Positions 26,401-34,629 of a stretch of DNA of 38,645 nt are shown here, one piece after another. Positions within the stretch are counted from its first letter, which is position 1; each line of letters opens with the position of its first letter. The position numbers were made by a program, and so were the translations under genes. The notes below the pieces were generated by a model. The model did no database searches. It saw only the letters and a list, made by a program, of their open reading frames with translations, and was not told the DNA's origin. Source of the stretch: Streptomyces niveiscabiei (lineage in GTDB: Bacteria > Actinomycetota > Actinomycetes > Streptomycetales > Streptomycetaceae); the NCBI RefSeq assembly GCF_001419795.1, contig NZ_LIRL01000378.1:409-39053 (forward strand). Direction: 5' to 3'.

Positions 26401-27594
26401 ATGGCCGAGCTCCGACTCCCCTTGCCCGCCGACGGCCCGCTGGAGCCGCCGCCCGCCTGGGCGGAACTGCGCCGCGCGTGCCCGGTCGCGTCTGTCCGCC
26501 TCCCCAGCGGCGACGAGGCGACGCTCCTGACCCGCTACGACGACGTACGCGCCCTGCTCTCCGACCCCCGCTTCGCCCGCCCCACCGCCGAGGACGGCGC
26601 CGCCCGGCTCGCCCCCGAGGGCGCGGGCGGCCCCGTCGTCGACGGCGAGCTCCAGGACGCCGTACCCGACCGGGGCGAGGGCCACCAGCGGTGGCGCCGG
26701 CAGGTCGGCAAGTACTTCACCGCCAAACGCATGACCGCCCTGCGCCCCGCGATCACCGAACGCGCCGAGGCGCTCGTGGACGCGATGGCCGAGCGGGGCC
26801 GACCCGCCGACCTGAAGGGCGCGTTCGGGTTCCCGCTGCCCGTGTACGTGATCTGTACGATCCTCGGGGTCCCCGCCGAGGACAGCGACCGCTTCTCGCA
26901 CTGGTCCGACGCCTTCCTCAACGTCAGCCGCTGGACGAAACAGGAGAGCGCGGCGGCGTACACGGAGTTCGACGCGTACATGTCCCGGCACATCGCGCAC
27001 GTCCGCGAGCACCCCGGCGACGACATGATCAGCATGTTCATCGCCGACCAGCCCGACGTCACCGACGCCTGGCTGCTGCGCACCGGCATGGGACTGCTCG
27101 TCGCCGGGCACGAGACGACCGCCAACGCCATCGGCAAGACCGTCGCGATGCTGCTGGCCGACCGGGCACGCTGGGAACAACTGCTGGCCGAACCGGAGCT
27201 GGTGCGCACGACCGTCGACGAGGCGCTGCGCCTGGACGTCAACCTCGGCTTCGGACTGCGGCGTTACCTCACCGAGGACGTCGAGGTCGGCGGCGCGGTG
27301 CTGCCGCGCGGCGCCACCGTCGTCTGCGCCCTGCCCGCCGCCAACCGGGACGCGGCGGCCTTCGAGGACCCCGACCGCATGCTGCTCTCCCGCACCCCCA
27401 ACCCGCACCTCGCGTTCGGCGCGGGCCCGCACTCCTGCCTGGGGCAGAGCCTCGCCAGGACCGAACTCCAGGTCGCCCTTGAGGTGCTGCTGCGGCGGCT
27501 GCCCACGCTGCGGCTCGCCGTGCCGGTCGGTGAACTGCGGCGCGTGGAGGGCCTGTTGGTGGGCGGGCTGAGCGAAGTGCCGGTGACGTGGTGA
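26401..27594 (+). CDS. Cytochrome P450
   Basis: A 397-residue soluble bacterial P450. The I-helix oxygen-activation motif is AGHETT (residues 235-240), the K-helix ExxR is E274-A-L-R277, and the heme loop is FGAGPHSCLGQSLA with C346 as axial ligand. It would hydroxylate or epoxidise a small organic substrate using electrons from the ferredoxin encoded next. The ATG follows GGAGGT by five bases. The stop overlaps the ferredoxin start as GTGA, so the pair is coupled. No biosynthetic core gene is nearby, so the substrate is unknown. A ferredoxin reductase must come from elsewhere. Confidence 0.93.
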   Translation: MAELRLPLPADGPLEPPPAWAELRRACPVASVRLPSGDEATLLTRYDDVRALLSDPRFARPTAEDGAARLAPEGAGGPVVDGELQDAVPDRGEGHQRWRRQVGKYFTAKRMTALRPAITERAEALVDAMAERGRPADLKGAFGFPLPVYVICTILGVPAEDSDRFSHWSDAFLNVSRWTKQESAAAYTEFDAYMSRHIAHVREHPGDDMISMFIADQPDVTDAWLLRTGMGLLVAGHETTANAIGKTVAMLLADRARWEQLLAEPELVRTTVDEALRLDVNLGFGLRRYLTEDVEVGGAVLPRGATVVCALPAANRDAAAFEDPDRMLLSRTPNPHLAFGAGPHSCLGQSLARTELQVALEVLLRRLPTLRLAVPVGELRRVEGLLVGGLSEVPVTW

Positions 27595-27803
27595 GGATCG
27601 CCGTCGACCGTTCGCTGTGCTGCGGCGCGGGGAACTGCGTCCTCGTCGCGCCCGGGGTGTTCGACCAGGACGAGGACGACGGGGTCGTGGTGCTGCTCAC
27701 GGAGACGCCCGCTGTGTCGGACGAGACCCGGGCGCGGGAGGCCGCGGCGATGTGCCCCGCCTCCGCGATCACGTTGCGTGAGGATGCGCACCGGGATGCG
27801 TGA
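27591..27803 (+). CDS. Small 3Fe-4S-type ferredoxin, P450 partner
   Basis: A 70-residue ferredoxin. Cluster ligands are C10 (or C11), C16 and C55 followed by Pro (LCCGAGNC and MCPAS), the pattern of single 3Fe-4S ferredoxins that feed actinobacterial P450s. It is very acidic in the middle (FDQDEDDG), as usual for such carriers. The GTG start overlaps the P450 stop by four bases; a GTG one codon earlier is also possible. The 55 bases to the next gene hold only its ribosome binding site and a possible TAGGGT -10 box. Confidence 0.9.
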   Translation: MRIAVDRSLCCGAGNCVLVAPGVFDQDEDDGVVVLLTETPAVSDETRAREAAAMCPASAITLREDAHRDA

Positions 27804-27858
27804 GGGGTGAGTCGACCTTAGGGTGAGGCCGCGAGGGGGCCCTCCGGAAAGGTCAACG

Positions 27859-29244
27859 ATGAGAAAGCCACCGTCGGCACTGGCTCTGGCCGCCGTCGCT
27901 GCGCTCGTCTGCTCCTGCGGCACCGCATCCGCCCCCGGGCCCGGACAGCGCGGCGCCGCCGCCGCGAACCTGGCCGACAGAGCCGGCTTCCGGGTCGTCA
28001 CGACCGGCCTCGGCGACCCGTACGAGATGATCCAGGGCCCCGACGGTCACCTGTGGCTCACCGAGAAGTCCGGCCTCAAAGTCACCCGCGTCGACCCCGG
28101 GACCGGCACCAAGACCACCGCCCTCGACCTGACCCGCAGGGCCGTCCGCGCCCAGGGCGGCAAGGACGGCGTCCTCGGCCTCGCCCTGCACCCCGACTTC
28201 GGCAAGAAGAAGGGCAGCGACTACGTCTACCTGTCCTACAGCTCCATGGACGGCGCGAAAGAAGCCGCGAGGATCGTCCGCTACACCGCGAAGAACGGGA
28301 AGCTCTCCGGCGAGTACACCGTCCTCAGCGGCCTCCCCGCCGGCGACGACCACCAGGGCGGACGCCTGCGCTACGGCCCCGACGGCAAGCTCTACTACTC
28401 GATCGGCGACCAGGGCGCGAACTACCTCGCCCACTACTGCGACCCCAACCAGGCCCAGAACCTGCCCACCGCCGCCCAGGTGAAGAAGAAGGACTGGTCG
28501 GCGTACCCCGGCAAGATCCTGCGCATGAACCCCGACGGCTCGATCCCGCACGACAACCCCGAGCTGAACGGCGTCCGCAGCCACGTCTACGCCTACGGCA
28601 TGCGCAACCCCAACGGCATGGACTTCCGGGGCGAGGAGCTGTACACCGCCGAGAACGGCCCCCTCACCGACGACGAGTTCAACCGCGTCGACAAGGGCGG
28701 CAACTACGGCTGGCCGAACGTCGCCGGATACCAGGACGACAAGGCGTACGTCTACTCGAACTGGGCCAAGGCCGAGGGCGGCTGCCGCAACCTCACCTTC
28801 ACCCCCGACCCCGGCAAGGCCCCCGCACAGGTGCCGACCAGCCGGGAACGCGACTTCACCAAGGACATGAAGGCGCCGCTCAGCACCTACGGCACGACCG
28901 TCGCCACCGGACACGACTTCGGCGTCACCCCGGTGTGCACCGACGCGAACACGTCCTACATGTGCTGGCCGACCATGGCACCCGGCGGCCTCAAGGCCGC
29001 GGGGGACGCGTTCCTCGTCACCTCCCTCAAGAACGGCACCGTCTACCGGCTCACCCAGGACGGCACGTCCTTCACGCAGCTCCACCGGAGCGTCAACCGC
29101 TACCGCGACGTCGCCCTGAGCCCCGACGGCAAGACCCTCTACATCGCCACCGACAGCGGCGGACTCGTCCACGGCCCCGGCGGCACCCCCACCGGCAAGC
29201 TCGCCAACCCCGGCGCGATCCTCGCCGTCCCCTACGGAAAGTGA
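27859..29244 (+). CDS. PQQ-dependent soluble-type aldose (glucose) dehydrogenase, lipoprotein
   Basis: A 461-residue protein of the soluble quinoprotein glucose dehydrogenase family (Acinetobacter GdhB type), a six-bladed propeller. It is exported and probably lipid-anchored at C20 (LVCSC). Family residues are present: the base His165 in DDHQGGRLRYGPDG, the PQQ-binding GMRNPNG, SYMCWPTMAP, the Lys in SLKNGTVYRL and the paired Arg in NRYRDVALSPDG. GNYGWPNVAGYQDD is nearly invariant in the family. It would oxidise aldoses to lactones outside the membrane, passing electrons to the respiratory chain. GGAAAGG precedes the ATG. The pqqA gene begins 6 bases later, so enzyme and cofactor genes are co-transcribed. 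Confidence 0.92.
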   Translation: MRKPPSALALAAVAALVCSCGTASAPGPGQRGAAAANLADRAGFRVVTTGLGDPYEMIQGPDGHLWLTEKSGLKVTRVDPGTGTKTTALDLTRRAVRAQGGKDGVLGLALHPDFGKKKGSDYVYLSYSSMDGAKEAARIVRYTAKNGKLSGEYTVLSGLPAGDDHQGGRLRYGPDGKLYYSIGDQGANYLAHYCDPNQAQNLPTAAQVKKKDWSAYPGKILRMNPDGSIPHDNPELNGVRSHVYAYGMRNPNGMDFRGEELYTAENGPLTDDEFNRVDKGGNYGWPNVAGYQDDKAYVYSNWAKAEGGCRNLTFTPDPGKAPAQVPTSRERDFTKDMKAPLSTYGTTVATGHDFGVTPVCTDANTSYMCWPTMAPGGLKAAGDAFLVTSLKNGTVYRLTQDGTSFTQLHRSVNRYRDVALSPDGKTLYIATDSGGLVHGPGGTPTGKLANPGAILAVPYGK

Positions 29245-29250
29245 GACCCG

Positions 29251-29391
29251 ATGATCCAGCACGACGAACGGGACGACAGGCATTCGGAGCGCCCCGACGA
29301 GACGACCGACCAGACCGCCTGGCACCGGCCCACCTACCAGATCGTCGAGGCGTCGATGGAGATGTCGGCGTACTTCCTCAGCGACCGGTAG
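29251..29391 (+). CDS. pqqA: PQQ precursor peptide PqqA
   Basis: A 46-residue peptide whose Glu and Tyr are cross-linked to make pyrroloquinoline quinone. E37-M-S-A-Y41 has the required Glu-x3-Tyr spacing and is followed by FLSDR, like the usual YF(A/L)xR end. The N-terminal leader (about 30 residues, acidic and His-rich) is longer than the roughly 15 residues of enterobacterial PqqA, as is common in actinobacteria. The ATG is seven bases after the dehydrogenase TGA and GGAAAG lies upstream. The peptide would be bound by PqqD and acted on by PqqE. Confidence 0.9.
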   Translation: MIQHDERDDRHSERPDETTDQTAWHRPTYQIVEASMEMSAYFLSDR

Positions 29392-29400
29392 GGGCGCGCC

Positions 29401-30213
29401 GTGCGCCTGCATGTCCTGGGTACGGCGGCCGGAGGCGGCGTCCCGCAGTGGAACTGCGCGTGTCCCGGGTGCTCGGGGGCGCGCGCGGTGCCGTCCTGGC
29501 GGCGGCTGCACGCGTCGATCGCCCTTGAGGTCGAGCCCGGCCGGATCTATCTGGTCAACGCGACTCCTGACATCGGCGAACAGATCGAGCGCTGCGGGTG
29601 GTTGCGCCCCGACGGGCGGCGCACTCCTCTCGCGGGGGTGATCCTCACCGACGCCGAACTCGATCACACGCTCGGGCTGGCGCGGCTCCGGGAGGCGGAC
29701 GAGCTGGAGATCATGGCGACGGACGCGGTGCGCAAGGCGGTGGGCGAGGGGCTGCGGCTGGAGGAGACCCTCGCGCCGTATGTGCGGTTGCGGTGGCGGG
29801 ACGTGGACGGGGCTTCGCTGGTGCCGGTGTCCGGTAAACGGCCGAGGTACGCGCGGGAGTTCCCGGCAGGTGATGGCGGGTGGGTGAGCGCGCTGAGCAT
29901 CGGGGGGCTGGTGTACGCGCCGGCCATGGGGGTGTGGCCCGCCGGGTTCGGGGAAGGGGCGGACGTCGTGTTCGCCGACGGGACGTTCTGGGACGAGGAC
30001 GAGCCCCGGCGGTGCGGGTTCTCGGAGAAGACGGCCACCGAGATGGGGCACCTGCCGATCGCCGCGACGCGGGAGCGGCTCGCCGCGCTGTCCGCACGGT
30101 GTTTCTACACGCACCTCAACAACACCAATCCTCTCGTGGACCCCGACGCGCCCCAGCACGCGGAGCTGCGGGGCGTCGAGGTGGCTTCGGAAGGGATGTC
30201 CCTCACATGGTGA
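29401..30213 (+). CDS. pqqB: PQQ biosynthesis protein PqqB
   Basis: A 270-residue metallo-beta-lactamase-fold protein that hydroxylates the Tyr-derived part of the PQQ intermediate. The start is typical: RLHVLGTAAGGGVPQWNC, followed by ACPGCSGAR. LTDAELDHTLGL replaces the catalytic HxHxDH with the PqqB-type acidic motif. FYTHLNNTNPL and FADGTFWDEDE are characteristic. It is slightly shorter than the roughly 300-residue norm. It starts 9 bases after pqqA with GTG and ends overlapping pqqC. Confidence 0.92.
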   Translation: MRLHVLGTAAGGGVPQWNCACPGCSGARAVPSWRRLHASIALEVEPGRIYLVNATPDIGEQIERCGWLRPDGRRTPLAGVILTDAELDHTLGLARLREADELEIMATDAVRKAVGEGLRLEETLAPYVRLRWRDVDGASLVPVSGKRPRYAREFPAGDGGWVSALSIGGLVYAPAMGVWPAGFGEGADVVFADGTFWDEDEPRRCGFSEKTATEMGHLPIAATRERLAALSARCFYTHLNNTNPLVDPDAPQHAELRGVEVASEGMSLTW

Positions 30214-30968
30214 TCGGTTCGACCGGCTCGATCGGTTCAGTCGACACGGCGGGTTCTTGGAAGTCGGGCCGGGCGGACCGGGCGAGCCCAGTGGACCGCG
30301 CGGCTTTCGAGCGCGAGCTCAGGGCCGTCCCCGAACACCACTACCACCACCGCCACCCCTTCAACCTCCGCATGCACCAAGGCGCGTTGACCCCCGCCGA
30401 ACTGCGCACCTGGATCCTCAACCGCTTCCACTACCAGCGGCACATCCCCGTCAAGGACGCCCTGATCCTCGCCAAGCTCGACGACCCCGCCCTGCGCCGC
30501 ATGTGGGTGCGCCGCATCACCGACCACGACGGCACCGGCGACGACGAGGGCGGCATCGAACGCTGGCTGCGCCTCGGCGAGGCCGCCGGACTCGACCGGG
30601 CCGACCTCCTCGCCGGGGACCGGGTGCTGCCGGGCGTACGGCTCGCCGTCGACGGGTACGTCAACCTCTGCCGCAACGCCGGCCCCCTCGAAGCCGTCGC
30701 CGCGTCCCTCACCGAACTCTTCGCGCCGGACCTGATGACGACCCGGATCGCCGCCTTCGAGCGGCACTACCCGTGGATCAGGCCCGAGGGACTCGCCTAC
30801 TTCACCTCCCGCGTCTCCCAGGGCCGCCGGGACAGCGGCGAAGCGCTCGCCCTCGTCCTGGACTGGGCCCGCACCCGCGCCGACCAGCAGACCGCCGTCG
30901 CCGCGCTCTCCTACAAGTGCGAGGTGCTGTGGACCCTGCTGGACGCCGTCGACCGGGCGTCCGCATGA
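30207..30968 (+). CDS. pqqC: Pyrroloquinoline-quinone synthase PqqC
   Basis: A 253-residue helical oxidase that performs the final ring closure and eight-electron oxidation with O2 and no metal. Family segments are YHHRHPFNLRMHQG, ILNRFHYQRHIPVKDALI, HDGTGDDEGGIERWLRLGEA, LFAPDL and YPWIRPEGLAYFTSR. The His-rich active site is preserved. It overlaps pqqB by 7 bases if the ATG is used, or by 4 with the following GTG. The N-terminal 30 residues are Gly/Ser-rich and not conserved. Confidence 0.93.
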   Translation: MVIGSTGSIGSVDTAGSWKSGRADRASPVDRAAFERELRAVPEHHYHHRHPFNLRMHQGALTPAELRTWILNRFHYQRHIPVKDALILAKLDDPALRRMWVRRITDHDGTGDDEGGIERWLRLGEAAGLDRADLLAGDRVLPGVRLAVDGYVNLCRNAGPLEAVAASLTELFAPDLMTTRIAAFERHYPWIRPEGLAYFTSRVSQGRRDSGEALALVLDWARTRADQQTAVAALSYKCEVLWTLLDAVDRASA

Positions 30969-31198
30969 CCTGGCGACCGGCCCTCAGCCCGTACGCGCGC
31001 GTACGGGACTGTCCGGTAAGGAAACGGACACTGCTGATCGTTCCTGAACGGATCGTCGTCCTCAGTACCGAGGCCGCCGCAGTGGTCGGCCTGTGCGACG
31101 GCACCCGGACCGTCCCCGAGATCCGCGCCGCCCTCGGGGACGGCGACGGCATCGCAGAGTTCCTGGACGACGTGAAGGAGCGCGGATGGCTGCGCTGA
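30965..31198 (+). CDS. pqqD: PqqA-binding chaperone PqqD
   Basis: A 77-residue RiPP recognition element that binds PqqA and presents it to PqqE. It reads MTWRPALSPYARVR, then LLIVPERIVVLSTEAAAVVGLCDG and VPEIRAAL, giving the winged-helix fold and the length typical of PqqD. The ATG overlaps the pqqC stop as ATGA, and its end overlaps the pqqE start by 13 bases, a strong sign of coupled synthesis. Confidence 0.9.
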   Translation: MTWRPALSPYARVRDCPVRKRTLLIVPERIVVLSTEAAAVVGLCDGTRTVPEIRAALGDGDGIAEFLDDVKERGWLR

Positions 31199-32352
31199 AC
31201 CCGCCGTGGGCCATGCTGGCCGAGCTGACCCACGGCTGCCCCCTGCGCTGCCCCTACTGCTCCAACCCCACCGAACTCGTCCGCCCCGCCGACGAGTTGG
31301 GCACGGACGACTGGCTGCGCGTGTTCGCCGAGGCCGCCCGCCTCGGCGTCGCACACGCCCACCTCTCCGGCGGCGAACCCCTGCTGCGCCGCGACCTCGC
31401 CGACCTGGTCGCGGGCGCGGCGGACGCCGGGATCTACGCCCAACTCGTCACCAGCGGCATCGGGCTGACCTCCGCGCGGCTAGACGAGCTGATCGCGGCC
31501 GGACTGCCCAGCGTCCAGCTCTCCGTGCAGGGCGCGGACGCCGCGAGTGCCGAACGCATCGCCGGGCGCCGGTCGTTCGCCGCGAAGGCCAGGGCCGCCG
31601 CGCTCGTCCGGGACGCCGGACTGCCGCTCGGCCTCAACGTCGTCCTGCACCGGCACAACCTCGACCGGCTCGACGAGATCATCCGGCTCGGCGTCGACTG
31701 GGGCGCCGTACGCATCGAACTCGCCAACACCCAGTTCTACGGCTGGGGGCTGCGCAACCGGGCCGCGCTCATGCCGAGCCGGGAGCAACTGGCCCGCGCG
31801 CAGCGGGTCGTCGAGGAGTGGCGGGGGCGGACCGGGACGGAGCTGATCTGGGTCGTGCCGGACTACTTCGACGGGGTGGCGAAACCCTGCATGGGCGGCT
31901 GGGGCGCGATCTCCCTGACCGTGGCTCCCGACGGGCGGGTCCTGCCCTGCCCCGCCGCCTACGACCTGCCGCTCGACGCGCCCGACGTCCGCGAGCACTC
32001 GCTGAGCTGGATCTGGCACGAGTCACCCGCGTTCAACGCCTACCGGGGCGGCGACTGGATGCCCGACCCCTGCCGGTCCTGCCCCCGCAAAGAGGCCGAC
32101 TTCGGAGGGTGCCGGTGCCAGGCGTTCGCGCTAACCGGGGACGCGGGCCGCACCGACCCGGCGTGCTCGCTGTCGCCGGACCACGGGCTGATCGCCGAAC
32201 TGTCGGCCGTGCGCGGCGGGGAGTTCGCCTATCGGGGGTACGTGGCCGGAAATCGTCAGCTGGCACACGGGCGGACTAGAGTGCGGGAATCGTCGACGCG
32301 TACCCCGAAAAGCGAGGTGTACGCCTCTGAGAGACGGAGAATCACGGAATGA
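31186..32352 (+). CDS. pqqE: Radical SAM PqqA cross-linking enzyme PqqE
   Basis: A 388-residue radical S-adenosylmethionine enzyme that forms the Glu-Tyr carbon-carbon bond in PqqA. The [4Fe-4S]-SAM motif is C18-P-L-R-C22-P-Y-C25. SGGEPLLRRDL is the SAM-binding stretch. The SPASM domain's auxiliary-cluster Cys are spread over PCMGGWGAISL, RVLPCPAAYD, DPCRSCPRKEADFGGCRCQ and PACSL. The last 40 or so residues (from about GNRQLAHG) are unlike the family and overlap a lower-G+C stretch with an inverted repeat. The stop overlaps the TetR start as ATGA. PqqF/G-type proteases are absent from the window. Confidence 0.93.
   Translation: MAALNPPWAMLAELTHGCPLRCPYCSNPTELVRPADELGTDDWLRVFAEAARLGVAHAHLSGGEPLLRRDLADLVAGAADAGIYAQLVTSGIGLTSARLDELIAAGLPSVQLSVQGADAASAERIAGRRSFAAKARAAALVRDAGLPLGLNVVLHRHNLDRLDEIIRLGVDWGAVRIELANTQFYGWGLRNRAALMPSREQLARAQRVVEEWRGRTGTELIWVVPDYFDGVAKPCMGGWGAISLTVAPDGRVLPCPAAYDLPLDAPDVREHSLSWIWHESPAFNAYRGGDWMPDPCRSCPRKEADFGGCRCQAFALTGDAGRTDPACSLSPDHGLIAELSAVRGGEFAYRGYVAGNRQLAHGRTRVRESSTRTPKSEVYASERRRITE
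32298..32324. promoter_or_regulatory. Inverted repeat near the end of pqqE, before tetR
   Basis: GCGTACCCCG and AGGTGTACGC form 10-base arms with 8 matching pairs and a 7-base spacer, 25 bases before the TetR start. Size and symmetry fit a TetR operator inside the 3' end of pqqE. This is inferred. The region also contains TAGAGT as a possible -10. Confidence 0.5.
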
Positions 32353-32972
32353 CCCGGGGGAGACCCGAGCGCAAGCAGCGGGCCAACGGCGTGGAGTCGC
32401 GGCGGCGCATCCTCGACGCGGCGGTCGAGATCGCGGGGGAGCGGGGGTACGAGGGCACGTCGATCGCGGCCGTCAGCGCCAAGTGCGGACTGCCCCCCAG
32501 CTCGATCTACTGGCACTTCAAGGACAAGGACGACCTGATCGCCGCCGTCATCGAGCGCAGCTTCGAGACCTGGCTGACGGCCGTCGAACTGCCCGGCGAG
32601 GACGCGGGGACCCCGCTGGAACGGGTCATGACCATGGCCGCGAACGTCGCCCGCTCCCTGCTCGACGCGCCCGACTTCCTGCGGCTCGGGCTGATGCTCG
32701 CGCTGGAGCGGCGGCCGGTCGAACCCCGGGGGCGGGGCGTCTACCTGGACGTCCGGGAGGCGGCGCGGCAGCGCGTCGCCGAGGTCGTCCGGGCCCTGTT
32801 CCCGGGGCTGGACGAGAAGGCCGTCGACATCCTCGTCACCTACGCCGTCGCCGGGGCCGACGGGCTCTTCGTCCAGCGCGAGATCGGCGGGGACATCGAC
32901 CTCGTCGGGATGTTCGAGCTGCACGCGCGGACCGTGTACGCGATGGCGGAGGGGATGCCGGCCGGGGGGTGA
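32349..32972 (+). CDS. TetR/AcrR family regulator
   Basis: A 207-residue repressor. The N-terminal helix-turn-helix is at about residues 15-65 (ILDAAVEIAGERGYEGTSIA, then CGLPPSSIYWHFKDKDDL). The C-terminal helical ligand domain is typical of TetR but not assignable. The ATG overlaps the pqqE stop as ATGA, and GGAG lies ten bases upstream. It is the last gene of the dehydrogenase-PQQ operon, so it may control its own end promoter or the whole operon. A TetR coupled to pqq genes is not something I know as standard. Confidence 0.87.
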   Translation: MTRGRPERKQRANGVESRRRILDAAVEIAGERGYEGTSIAAVSAKCGLPPSSIYWHFKDKDDLIAAVIERSFETWLTAVELPGEDAGTPLERVMTMAANVARSLLDAPDFLRLGLMLALERRPVEPRGRGVYLDVREAARQRVAEVVRALFPGLDEKAVDILVTYAVAGADGLFVQREIGGDIDLVGMFELHARTVYAMAEGMPAGG

Positions 32973-32980
32973 GGGCCGGC
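32957..32980. terminator. Terminator between tetR and the convergent gene
   Basis: GCCGGCC (32957-32963) and GGCCGGC (32974-32980) form a 7-bp stem with a 10-base loop overlapping the TetR stop codon. It lies 28 bases from the stop of the opposing gene and may stop transcripts from both sides. Confidence 0.55.
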
Positions 32981-33007
32981 CGGCGGGGCTTCGGGCGGCG
33001 GTGCGGG

Positions 33008-33649
33008 TCAGGCCCGCGCCTCGACCACCGCGAACACGCCGCGCACCCGGTTGCCCTCCAGGTCGCTCCACGCGCCGGTCACATGGCCGAGCGCGTCCGC
33101 CGGAGGGGCGTCGGGCACGGCGGTCAGGAGGCGGTTGAAGCGGACGGCGGGACCGCCCGGCGTCGTGAGCGTCGTACCGTCGGCCGTCTCGGTCACCGTC
33201 ACCTCGCCGGACAGCAGCGGTGCCCCGCCCGCGTACGCGTGGGTGACCTCCTCGTCCAGGGCGTCGCTCGTGCTCTGGGCCTGCGCCGGGAGCCGCCCCT
33301 GGAGGAACGCGGCCAGGGCGCCGGTCAGCACCGGGTCGTGGACGCCGTCGTACGCCCAGCGCTCTCCGAGGACGCCGTGCTCCAGGGTGGTGATGAGCGC
33401 GTGGTCCGCGCCGGAGAGGGGGGCGGAACGGTAGGTGAGGGGGACCAGGTAGGCGTGCGGGCCCTCGGCGTCGGTGGCGACGAAGAACTCGATGCCGACC
33501 TCGCCCTCGGGGTCGTCGAGCCGGAAGCCCCCGGCCTTGGCAAGCTGCGGGACGGCCGTACCGCCCTGGTACCACGCGCGCGTGGGGAGCCACGTGGTGA
33601 GGAATTCGAGCTTGGTCGGCTTGAGCCAGGTGCGATGAATGATCGACAT
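33008..33649 (-). CDS. Maltokinase N-terminal cap-like protein
   Basis: A 213-residue protein resembling the N-terminal cap of maltokinases, with no kinase domain. Characteristic pieces are IIHRTWLKPTKLEFL, TWLPTRAWYQGG and FFVATDAEGPHAYLVPLTYR. Similar stand-alone proteins in Streptomyces are often mislabelled as glucan-branching proteins. No catalytic motif is seen. It is cytoplasmic. The ATG at 33649 follows GGAG by about eleven bases. It is divergent from the class A beta-lactamase gene across 104 bases and convergent with tetR. A regulatory or scaffold role is possible but unknown. Confidence 0.72.
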   Translation of the reverse strand: MSIIHRTWLKPTKLEFLTTWLPTRAWYQGGTAVPQLAKAGGFRLDDPEGEVGIEFFVATDAEGPHAYLVPLTYRSAPLSGADHALITTLEHGVLGERWAYDGVHDPVLTGALAAFLQGRLPAQAQSTSDALDEEVTHAYAGGAPLLSGEVTVTETADGTTLTTPGGPAVRFNRLLTAVPDAPPADALGHVTGAWSDLEGNRVRGVFAVVEARA

Positions 33650-33753: not shown

Positions 33754-34629
33754 ATGGCACGAACGAACACCCCGCGACGCCGCACCCTCCTCGCCCTGGG
33801 CGCCGGAGCGGCCCTGACAGCGGCCGTGGCGCCCCCGGCCCACGCCGCCGGCAGGGACGTCTTCGCCGGCCTGGAGGAGGAGTACGCCGCCCGGCTGGGC
33901 GTCTTCGCCCACGACACCGCGACCGGGAGGACGCTGACGCACCGCGCGGACGAACGGTTCCCGATGTGCTCGGTGTTCAAGGCGCCGGCCGCGGCGGCCG
34001 TCCTGCGCGAGGGCCTGGACCCGACCAAGCGCATCCACTACACGCAGCAGGAGCTGACGGACTCCGGATACGCGCCCGTCACCGAGAAGCACCTCGACAC
34101 CGGCATGACCGTCGGGGAACTCTGCGCCGCCGCCGTCTCCCACAGCGACAACGCCGCCGCCAACTTCCTCCTGCGCGAACTCGGCGGCCCCACCGCCATC
34201 ACCCGCTTCGCCCGCTCCCTCGGCGACCCCGTGACCCGCCTCGACCGCTGGGAGCCCGACCTCAACTCCGCCGAACCCTGGCGTACGACGGACACGACGA
34301 CACCCCACGCGATCGCCCGCACCTACGCTAAGTTCCTCCTCGGCGACGTCCTGCGGCCCGCCGACCGCACCCGCCTCACCTCCTGGATGGTCGCCAACTC
34401 CACCAACGTCACCCGCTTCCGCGCCGGACTCCCCGCGGACTGGATCCTCGCCGACAAGACGGGCGGCGCGGGCTCCTACGGCGTCGCCAACGACGTCGGC
34501 GTGGTGTGGCCGCCCGGCCGGGCGCCGCTGGTGATCGCGGTGCTGACGACGACGTACGCGGCCGAGGGGCCCTCGAAGAACGAGCTGGTGGCCAAGGCGG
34601 CGGCGCGGGTGGCGGCGACGCTGACCTGA
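33754..34629 (+). CDS. Class A beta-lactamase, Tat-exported
   Basis: A 291-residue secreted serine beta-lactamase. The N-terminus has a twin-arginine signal (PRRRTLLALGAGAAL, cut near PAHAA). Class A motifs are complete: S73-V-F-K76, S131-D-N133, E167 in WEPDLN (the Omega-loop general base) and K235-TGG. The Cys before the catalytic Ser (MCSVFK) is seen in many class A enzymes. It would hydrolyse penicillins and possibly early cephalosporins outside the membrane. No bla regulator is adjacent. It ends at a 26-base palindromic terminator. Confidence 0.93.
   Translation: MARTNTPRRRTLLALGAGAALTAAVAPPAHAAGRDVFAGLEEEYAARLGVFAHDTATGRTLTHRADERFPMCSVFKAPAAAAVLREGLDPTKRIHYTQQELTDSGYAPVTEKHLDTGMTVGELCAAAVSHSDNAAANFLLRELGGPTAITRFARSLGDPVTRLDRWEPDLNSAEPWRTTDTTTPHAIARTYAKFLLGDVLRPADRTRLTSWMVANSTNVTRFRAGLPADWILADKTGGAGSYGVANDVGVVWPPGRAPLVIAVLTTTYAAEGPSKNELVAKAAARVAATLT

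Follow-up and report, generated by a model that had tools for sequence, protein, structure and literature searches.

The window analyzed here is a stretch of 38,645 nucleotides (nt) of Streptomyces niveiscabiei DNA (contig NZ_LIRL01000378.1), and it carries on the plus strand a run in which a gene for a sugar dehydrogenase of the pyrroloquinoline quinone (PQQ) type, gdh, is followed by the PQQ biosynthesis genes pqqABCDE and by tetR, a gene for a TetR-type regulator. The run, in which gene starts were chosen among candidate start codons, is composed as follows:

27859-29244, plus strand: gdh, sugar dehydrogenase of the soluble PQQ glucose dehydrogenase (sGDH) type (TIGR03606), a predicted lipoprotein
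29251-29391, plus strand: pqqA, 46-aa precursor peptide with an E-x3-Y motif (EMSAY) near the C terminus; 6-nt gap after gdh
29401-30213, plus strand: pqqB (TIGR02108), GTG start; 9-nt gap after pqqA
30207-30968, plus strand: pqqC, PQQ synthase (TIGR02111); 7-nt overlap with pqqB
30965-31198, plus strand: pqqD, peptide chaperone scoring below its family cut-off; 4-nt overlap with pqqC
31186-32352, plus strand: pqqE, radical SAM/SPASM PqqA cyclase (TIGR02109); 13-nt overlap with pqqD
32349-32972, plus strand: tetR, relative of TetR proteins encoded beside aromatic catabolism genes; 4-nt overlap with pqqE

These coordinates confirm the gene order of an earlier prediction for this DNA (hereafter, the original prediction), namely gdh-pqqABCDE-tetR with 6 nt between gdh and pqqA and overlaps from pqqB on, and uphold its point that enzyme and cofactor genes lie together, with a PQQ-type dehydrogenase gene in tandem with a full pqqABCDE set. 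We conclude that gdh-pqqABCDE is a well-formed unit and a rare variant of a recurrent arrangement. As a whole, we favor, with a probability of roughly 0.75, the reading that gdh-pqqABCDE is one unit which would make both the enzyme and PQQ, and that tetR is a separate neighbor. The tight spacing and overlaps, together with the same gene order in Streptomyces acidiscabies and Streptomyces sp. CB02056, speak for a single unit; a spacer before tetR in S. acidiscabies and a palindrome, both described below, speak for a separate tetR.

The dehydrogenase and the PQQ biosynthesis proteins

The GDH protein passes the NCBIfam profile for soluble PQQ glucose dehydrogenases (TIGR03606: 460.2 bits; cut-off 434.55) and aligns with the Acinetobacter calcoaceticus sGDH chain 1c9u over residues 43-459 (320.6 bits; 42.8% identical). 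In this alignment H144 is kept, as are R228, N229, K377, R406, and R408, which we take to be the PQQ ligands of sGDH, and GDH is thus likely to bind PQQ. His144 is the catalytic residue of sGDH according to an excerpt of PMC6881789. A lipobox-like LVCSC was read by eye, consistent with a lipoprotein that would be secreted.

PqqB (272 bits; cut-off 245), PqqC (283.8; 240), and PqqE (496.8; 381.35) all pass their NCBIfam cut-offs, and among the proteins of the run the Pfam cut-offs are passed by GSDH, Lactamase_B_2, TENA/PqqC, Radical_SAM, SPASM, and TetR_N. PqqC and PqqE could both be aligned to solved structure chains. We take the PqqC active site to comprise H24, H84, H154, Y175, R179, and K214; all are kept except at position 154, which is Met. 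Since 104 of 107 aligned rows, nearly all of them from the genus, carry Met here, with His in two proteobacterial rows, Met154 is general in the genus. The residues H154 and Y175 are treated in PMC2294125, as an excerpt of that paper indicates.

No pqqF or pqqG lies in the gene run. This absence had been predicted correctly. Two annotated pqqABCDE clusters, of Sulfitobacter sp. S223 and Burkholderia multivorans, show neither gene within ~5 kb, an excerpt of PMC2294125 describes A. calcoaceticus as having no PqqF/G homologues, and the genome at hand contains three unlinked matches to M16 peptidases, one on contig C512 and two neighboring on C114. The missing pqqF/G is therefore ordinary. The two neighboring M16 genes (C114:8958-10777) are candidates for a two-part PqqA protease.

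Occurrence of the arrangement in Streptomyces

Among 392 genomes of the genus, 88 have a match to the PqqC profile TIGR02111 that exceeds the cut-off (95 have one at E<=0.001), and none of 14 control genomes has a match. PQQ synthesis is thus not unusual in Streptomyces, and the idea that PQQ genes are rare in the genus was ruled out. The soluble-GDH type (TIGR03606 at E<=1e-60) was found in five of the 392 genomes (four of them above the cut-off) and in two of 396 genomes of a phylum sample, our genome being included in each count. Accordingly, of the original claim that this combination is uncommon in Streptomyces, the part concerning the enzyme type stands and the part concerning PQQ synthesis does not.

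When 84,980 named genomes were scanned with gdh, at a reach of close relatives alone, 22 loci were returned, two of them close: one at 86% in S. acidiscabies NRRL B-16521 and one at 70% in Streptomyces sp. CB02056. Both have the order gdh-pqqABCDE, so that this exact run was found in three species, the window's included. CB02056 has the run without the P450, ferredoxin, and tetR genes that adjoin it in the window. A single-protein gdh search of 150 relatives matched our own genome alone. A soluble-GDH gene also occurs in G130, G142, G185, and G334, four further genomes of the genus, and no pqq gene was found in the stretches taken in around it (one stretch, L164, stops at a contig edge); PqqC is encoded elsewhere in G130 and G142, and no PqqC match was obtained in G185 and G334. 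For the plasmid-borne sGDH genes of Deinococcus ficus, Palleronia, and Ketogulonicigenium, the gene table, which is incomplete, lists no pqq gene within 6 kb.

We also surveyed the genus pqq loci (102 PqqC places above the cut-off; 101 neighborhoods plus our own were taken in). Of 100 other loci, 14 have a GSDH-family gene immediately before pqqA/B and on its strand, and 44 of 99 have one anywhere in the ~14 kb stretch (L068, a locus without a PqqC frame, was left out). Four of the upstream enzymes were examined and are 28-32% identical to the window GDH over 232-329 aa, and none of the 100 loci has the close soluble-GDH type (best 150 bits vs. 1067 for self). In a FastTree phylogeny of PqqE (104 of 107 rows; in three PqqE was absent or too short), the window sequence groups with those of S. 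acidiscabies and CB02056 (support 98); this set adjoins one of 74 rows (support 94), many loci of which carry a GSDH-family gene. In the literature, an excerpt of PMC11858620 gives gcd plus pqqBCDE for S. misionensis, and no paper on S. acidiscabies with PQQ was found in a search that left most subscription journals outside.

The tetR gene and its relatives

The pqqE gene of S. acidiscabies terminates in TGA, and 59 nt of spacer lie between it and tetR. In the window GAA stands at the position of this TGA and pqqE runs on for 21 codons (32287-32349) into tetR, so the overlap between the two genes is due to loss of the pqqE stop codon. Two features lie at this junction:

32277-32282, plus strand: TAGAGT, a -10-like hexamer before tetR, read by eye
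32295-32327, plus strand: imperfect palindrome GACGCGTACCCC-N9-GGTGTACGCCTC inside the pqqE extension, candidate autoregulatory operator of tetR

With the window TetR as query (E<=1e-30), relatives were obtained in 33 of 392 genus genomes, our own included, at 40 places besides its own, of which 37 were taken in; in most of the 40 places the relative is 73-80% identical over nearly the full length. A gene similar to 3-(3-hydroxyphenyl)propionate hydroxylase (NF004829: 443.4; cut-off 390) is divergent from tetR in 19 of the 37 loci, with its start 84-318 nt away. Of four catabolism genes, one or more occur in the stretch in 24 loci and none in 13. A set of 14 TetR members is mostly without catabolism genes, and six of these share a neighboring protein of two domains, one of them of the Glyoxalase/Dioxygenase type (29.9 bits; cut-off 20.6). 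The best NCBIfam model for the window TetR, the gamma-butyrolactone receptor (ScbR type, NF041196), was rejected, as it scores 72.8 bits where 150 are required.

This genus lineage (L188-L224) has a strongly conserved palindromic operator beside the hydroxyphenylpropionate-type catabolism genes: 31 of the 37 loci have an upstream CACTCCAATTGGAATG-type palindrome built around CCAATT. No such operator was found in the window (best score -12 vs. 28 to 57 for real sites), and its core has no match in our own genome with one mismatch allowed; the closest hydroxylase relative encoded there is 35% identical. In 35 of 37 relatives the recognition-helix motif is CGLPA, the other two being unreadable; the window TetR has CGLPP and that of S. 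acidiscabies CGLPT, and in the TetR tree the latter two form a pair apart, the nearest neighbors of which are weakly supported.

The history of TetR is to us the most interesting aspect of the locus, as the regulator looks borrowed from another pathway. A repressor lineage of phenylpropionate-type catabolism loci could have moved beside the PQQ operon and been rewired, such that aromatic acids may switch the operon, although we rate this whole scenario as rather improbable; the rewiring may have involved a change of Ala to Pro or Thr in the recognition helix, loss of the old operator, and gain of a new one. If true, plant-derived aromatic acids might switch PQQ production and sugar oxidation. 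In any case, tetR offers a testable example of a repressor possibly rewired after gaining a new neighbor.

Function of the unit, rival explanations, and known systems

In the favored reading, gdh-pqqABCDE would be transcribed as a single unit. PqqE together with PqqD would form the Glu-Tyr cross-link in PqqA, an unlinked peptidase, with the M16 proteins as candidates, would free the cross-linked pair, and PqqB and PqqC would carry out the final steps to PQQ. The predicted lipoprotein GDH, once secreted, would load PQQ outside the membrane and oxidize an aldose, glucose perhaps not being its chief substrate. The adjoining tetR would probably have its own promoter and repress itself, having been joined to the operon here by the lost pqqE stop. 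Of this scheme, the gene order, the family assignments, the retained catalytic and PQQ-binding residues, and the presence of the run in two further named species were observed directly, and co-transcription, secretion, activity, substrate, and self-repression are inferred.

Several observations weigh against this reading. PqqA (TIGR02107: 18.3 bits; cut-off 20; E 0.0016) and PqqD (TIGR03859: 37.1 bits; cut-off 46; E 2.1e-9) score under their cut-offs, the Pfam PqqD match does likewise (18.1 vs. 23.4), and the window peptide has no Pfam PqqA match. As the Pfam PqqA profile (PF08042) found nothing in our own genome and nothing in the 14 control genomes either, that search is uninformative. We accept both proteins because of their position, that of pqqD between pqqC and pqqE fitting the family, because of the E-x3-Y motif, which reads EMSAY in the window and S. 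acidiscabies (L137) and EVSAY in CB02056 (L136), and because equivalent open reading frames are present in these two species. The genome also has, besides gdh, four further GSDH-family matches above the cut-off (five in total), which are other possible users of PQQ; two matches to TIGR03075 are both far under the cut-off. A scan for sigma-70-type consensus promoters across 27400-33100 returned no site, and a terminator scan gave one terminator-like site, at chance level. The palindrome at 32295-32327 is only moderately unusual, as equally good ones arise in 22 of 1000 shuffled sequences and in 68 of 1000 stretches drawn at random from the window; given this and the lack of a promoter-like site in the scan, self-repression of tetR through it is a guess. 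The pqqE-tetR spacer is 95.3% identical to that of S. acidiscabies, but this degree of conservation is matched by 211 of 630 stretches from the surrounding region, and spacer conservation was for this reason dropped as proof of an operator. Finally, two sugar contacts are altered in the window GDH (Q76K and Q168Y), which calls glucose as the substrate into question.

The last point bears on the possibility that the pocket of this PQQ enzyme has become adapted to a different aldose or to an acidic sugar, which we put at somewhat below even odds. Both changes fall on substrate-binding positions of sGDH, which in an excerpt of PMC6881789 include Gln76, Gln168, Tyr343, and Trp346; S. acidiscabies GDH has the same two, and CB02056 GDH has D143Q and Q168Y with Q76 kept. 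Conversely, D143, Y343, and W346 are kept in the window GDH, and broad specificity is typical of sGDH, as stated in an excerpt of PMC11130540. Because of Q76K and Q168Y we do not claim glucose specificity: in the label "glucose dehydrogenase" of the original prediction, the PQQ-type enzyme is well founded and glucose is unproven.

The original prediction further took TetR to be the operon's own regulator, repressing a promoter before gdh until a ligand derepresses enzyme and cofactor jointly. The gene does adjoin and overlap pqqE in the window, and the pairing is kept in S. acidiscabies. However, the coupling itself is weakened by the 59-nt spacer of S. acidiscabies and the stop lost in the window, the CB02056 operon without this tetR (an unrelated TetR-like gene was seen there by eye on the other strand), and the close TetR relatives at other loci. 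Moreover, no operator was found before gdh by the relatives' profile (score -39.3; real sites 28 to 57), by pattern, or by repeat search, and the exact palindrome pattern of the tetR spacer occurs at two places in the genome alone, the other one within a long open frame. We consider this explanation unlikely, and the sequence lends no support to TetR control of gdh-pqq.

Upstream of gdh, a cytochrome P450-like gene (so labeled from sequence reading and relatives) and a 4Fe-4S ferredoxin gene (from Pfam) directly adjoin at 26401-27803. Before gdh lies a weak inverted repeat (27811-27857) with arms of 9 nt spaced by 29 nt, and at 33754-34629 is a gene for a beta-lactamase of class A (322 bits; cut-off 200). 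That gdh is read from the P450-ferredoxin unit and pqqABCDE separately from within gdh is compatible with the end of the ferredoxin gene at 27803 on the gdh strand, 55 nt before gdh, but is very improbable in view of the 6-nt gdh-pqqA gap and of CB02056, which keeps gdh-pqqABCDE without these two genes alongside.

With gdh-pqqABCDE read as one unit, the locus brings the complete pqqABCDE set together with a PQQ sugar dehydrogenase of the soluble type in a compact form useful for tests of PQQ function in Streptomyces, and GDH, its sugar pocket being altered, is a lead in the search for sensor enzymes. The survey also indicates that the type of dehydrogenase before pqqA varies among genus lineages.

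Among known systems, A. calcoaceticus GdhB (PDB 1c9u, 5min) resembles the window enzyme in sequence (43% identity), in the TIGR03606 profile, and in the catalytic His144 and PQQ ligands; the window enzyme differs in Q76K, Q168Y, a Leu at sGDH position N428, its predicted lipoprotein nature, and the place of its gene before pqqA. The TetR proteins beside 3-hydroxyphenylpropionate-type catabolism genes share 73-80% identity with the window TetR, but have the operator (31 of 37) and a recognition-helix Ala where the window has no such operator and a Pro. The proteobacterial clusters of Sulfitobacter sp. S223 and B. multivorans share the A-B-C-D-E order, the overlaps or short gaps, and the absence of pqqF within ~5 kb, whereas no dehydrogenase gene directly precedes their pqqA and their PqqC has His at position 154 instead of Met. 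Other genus pqq loci (e.g., L055, L065, and L070) likewise have a GSDH-family gene before pqqA/B, with PqqE in the larger set, although their upstream enzyme is of a divergent type. An excerpt of PMC3023750 describes Mycobacterium smegmatis MSMEG_3726 as a sole PQQ-dependent enzyme clustered with cofactor synthesis and gives as a general rule that a lone PQQ-dependent enzyme clusters with PQQ genes; MSMEG_3726 itself belongs to a different family (TIGR03075) and is an alcohol dehydrogenase, whereas here a sugar dehydrogenase of the soluble-GDH type stands beside the cofactor genes.

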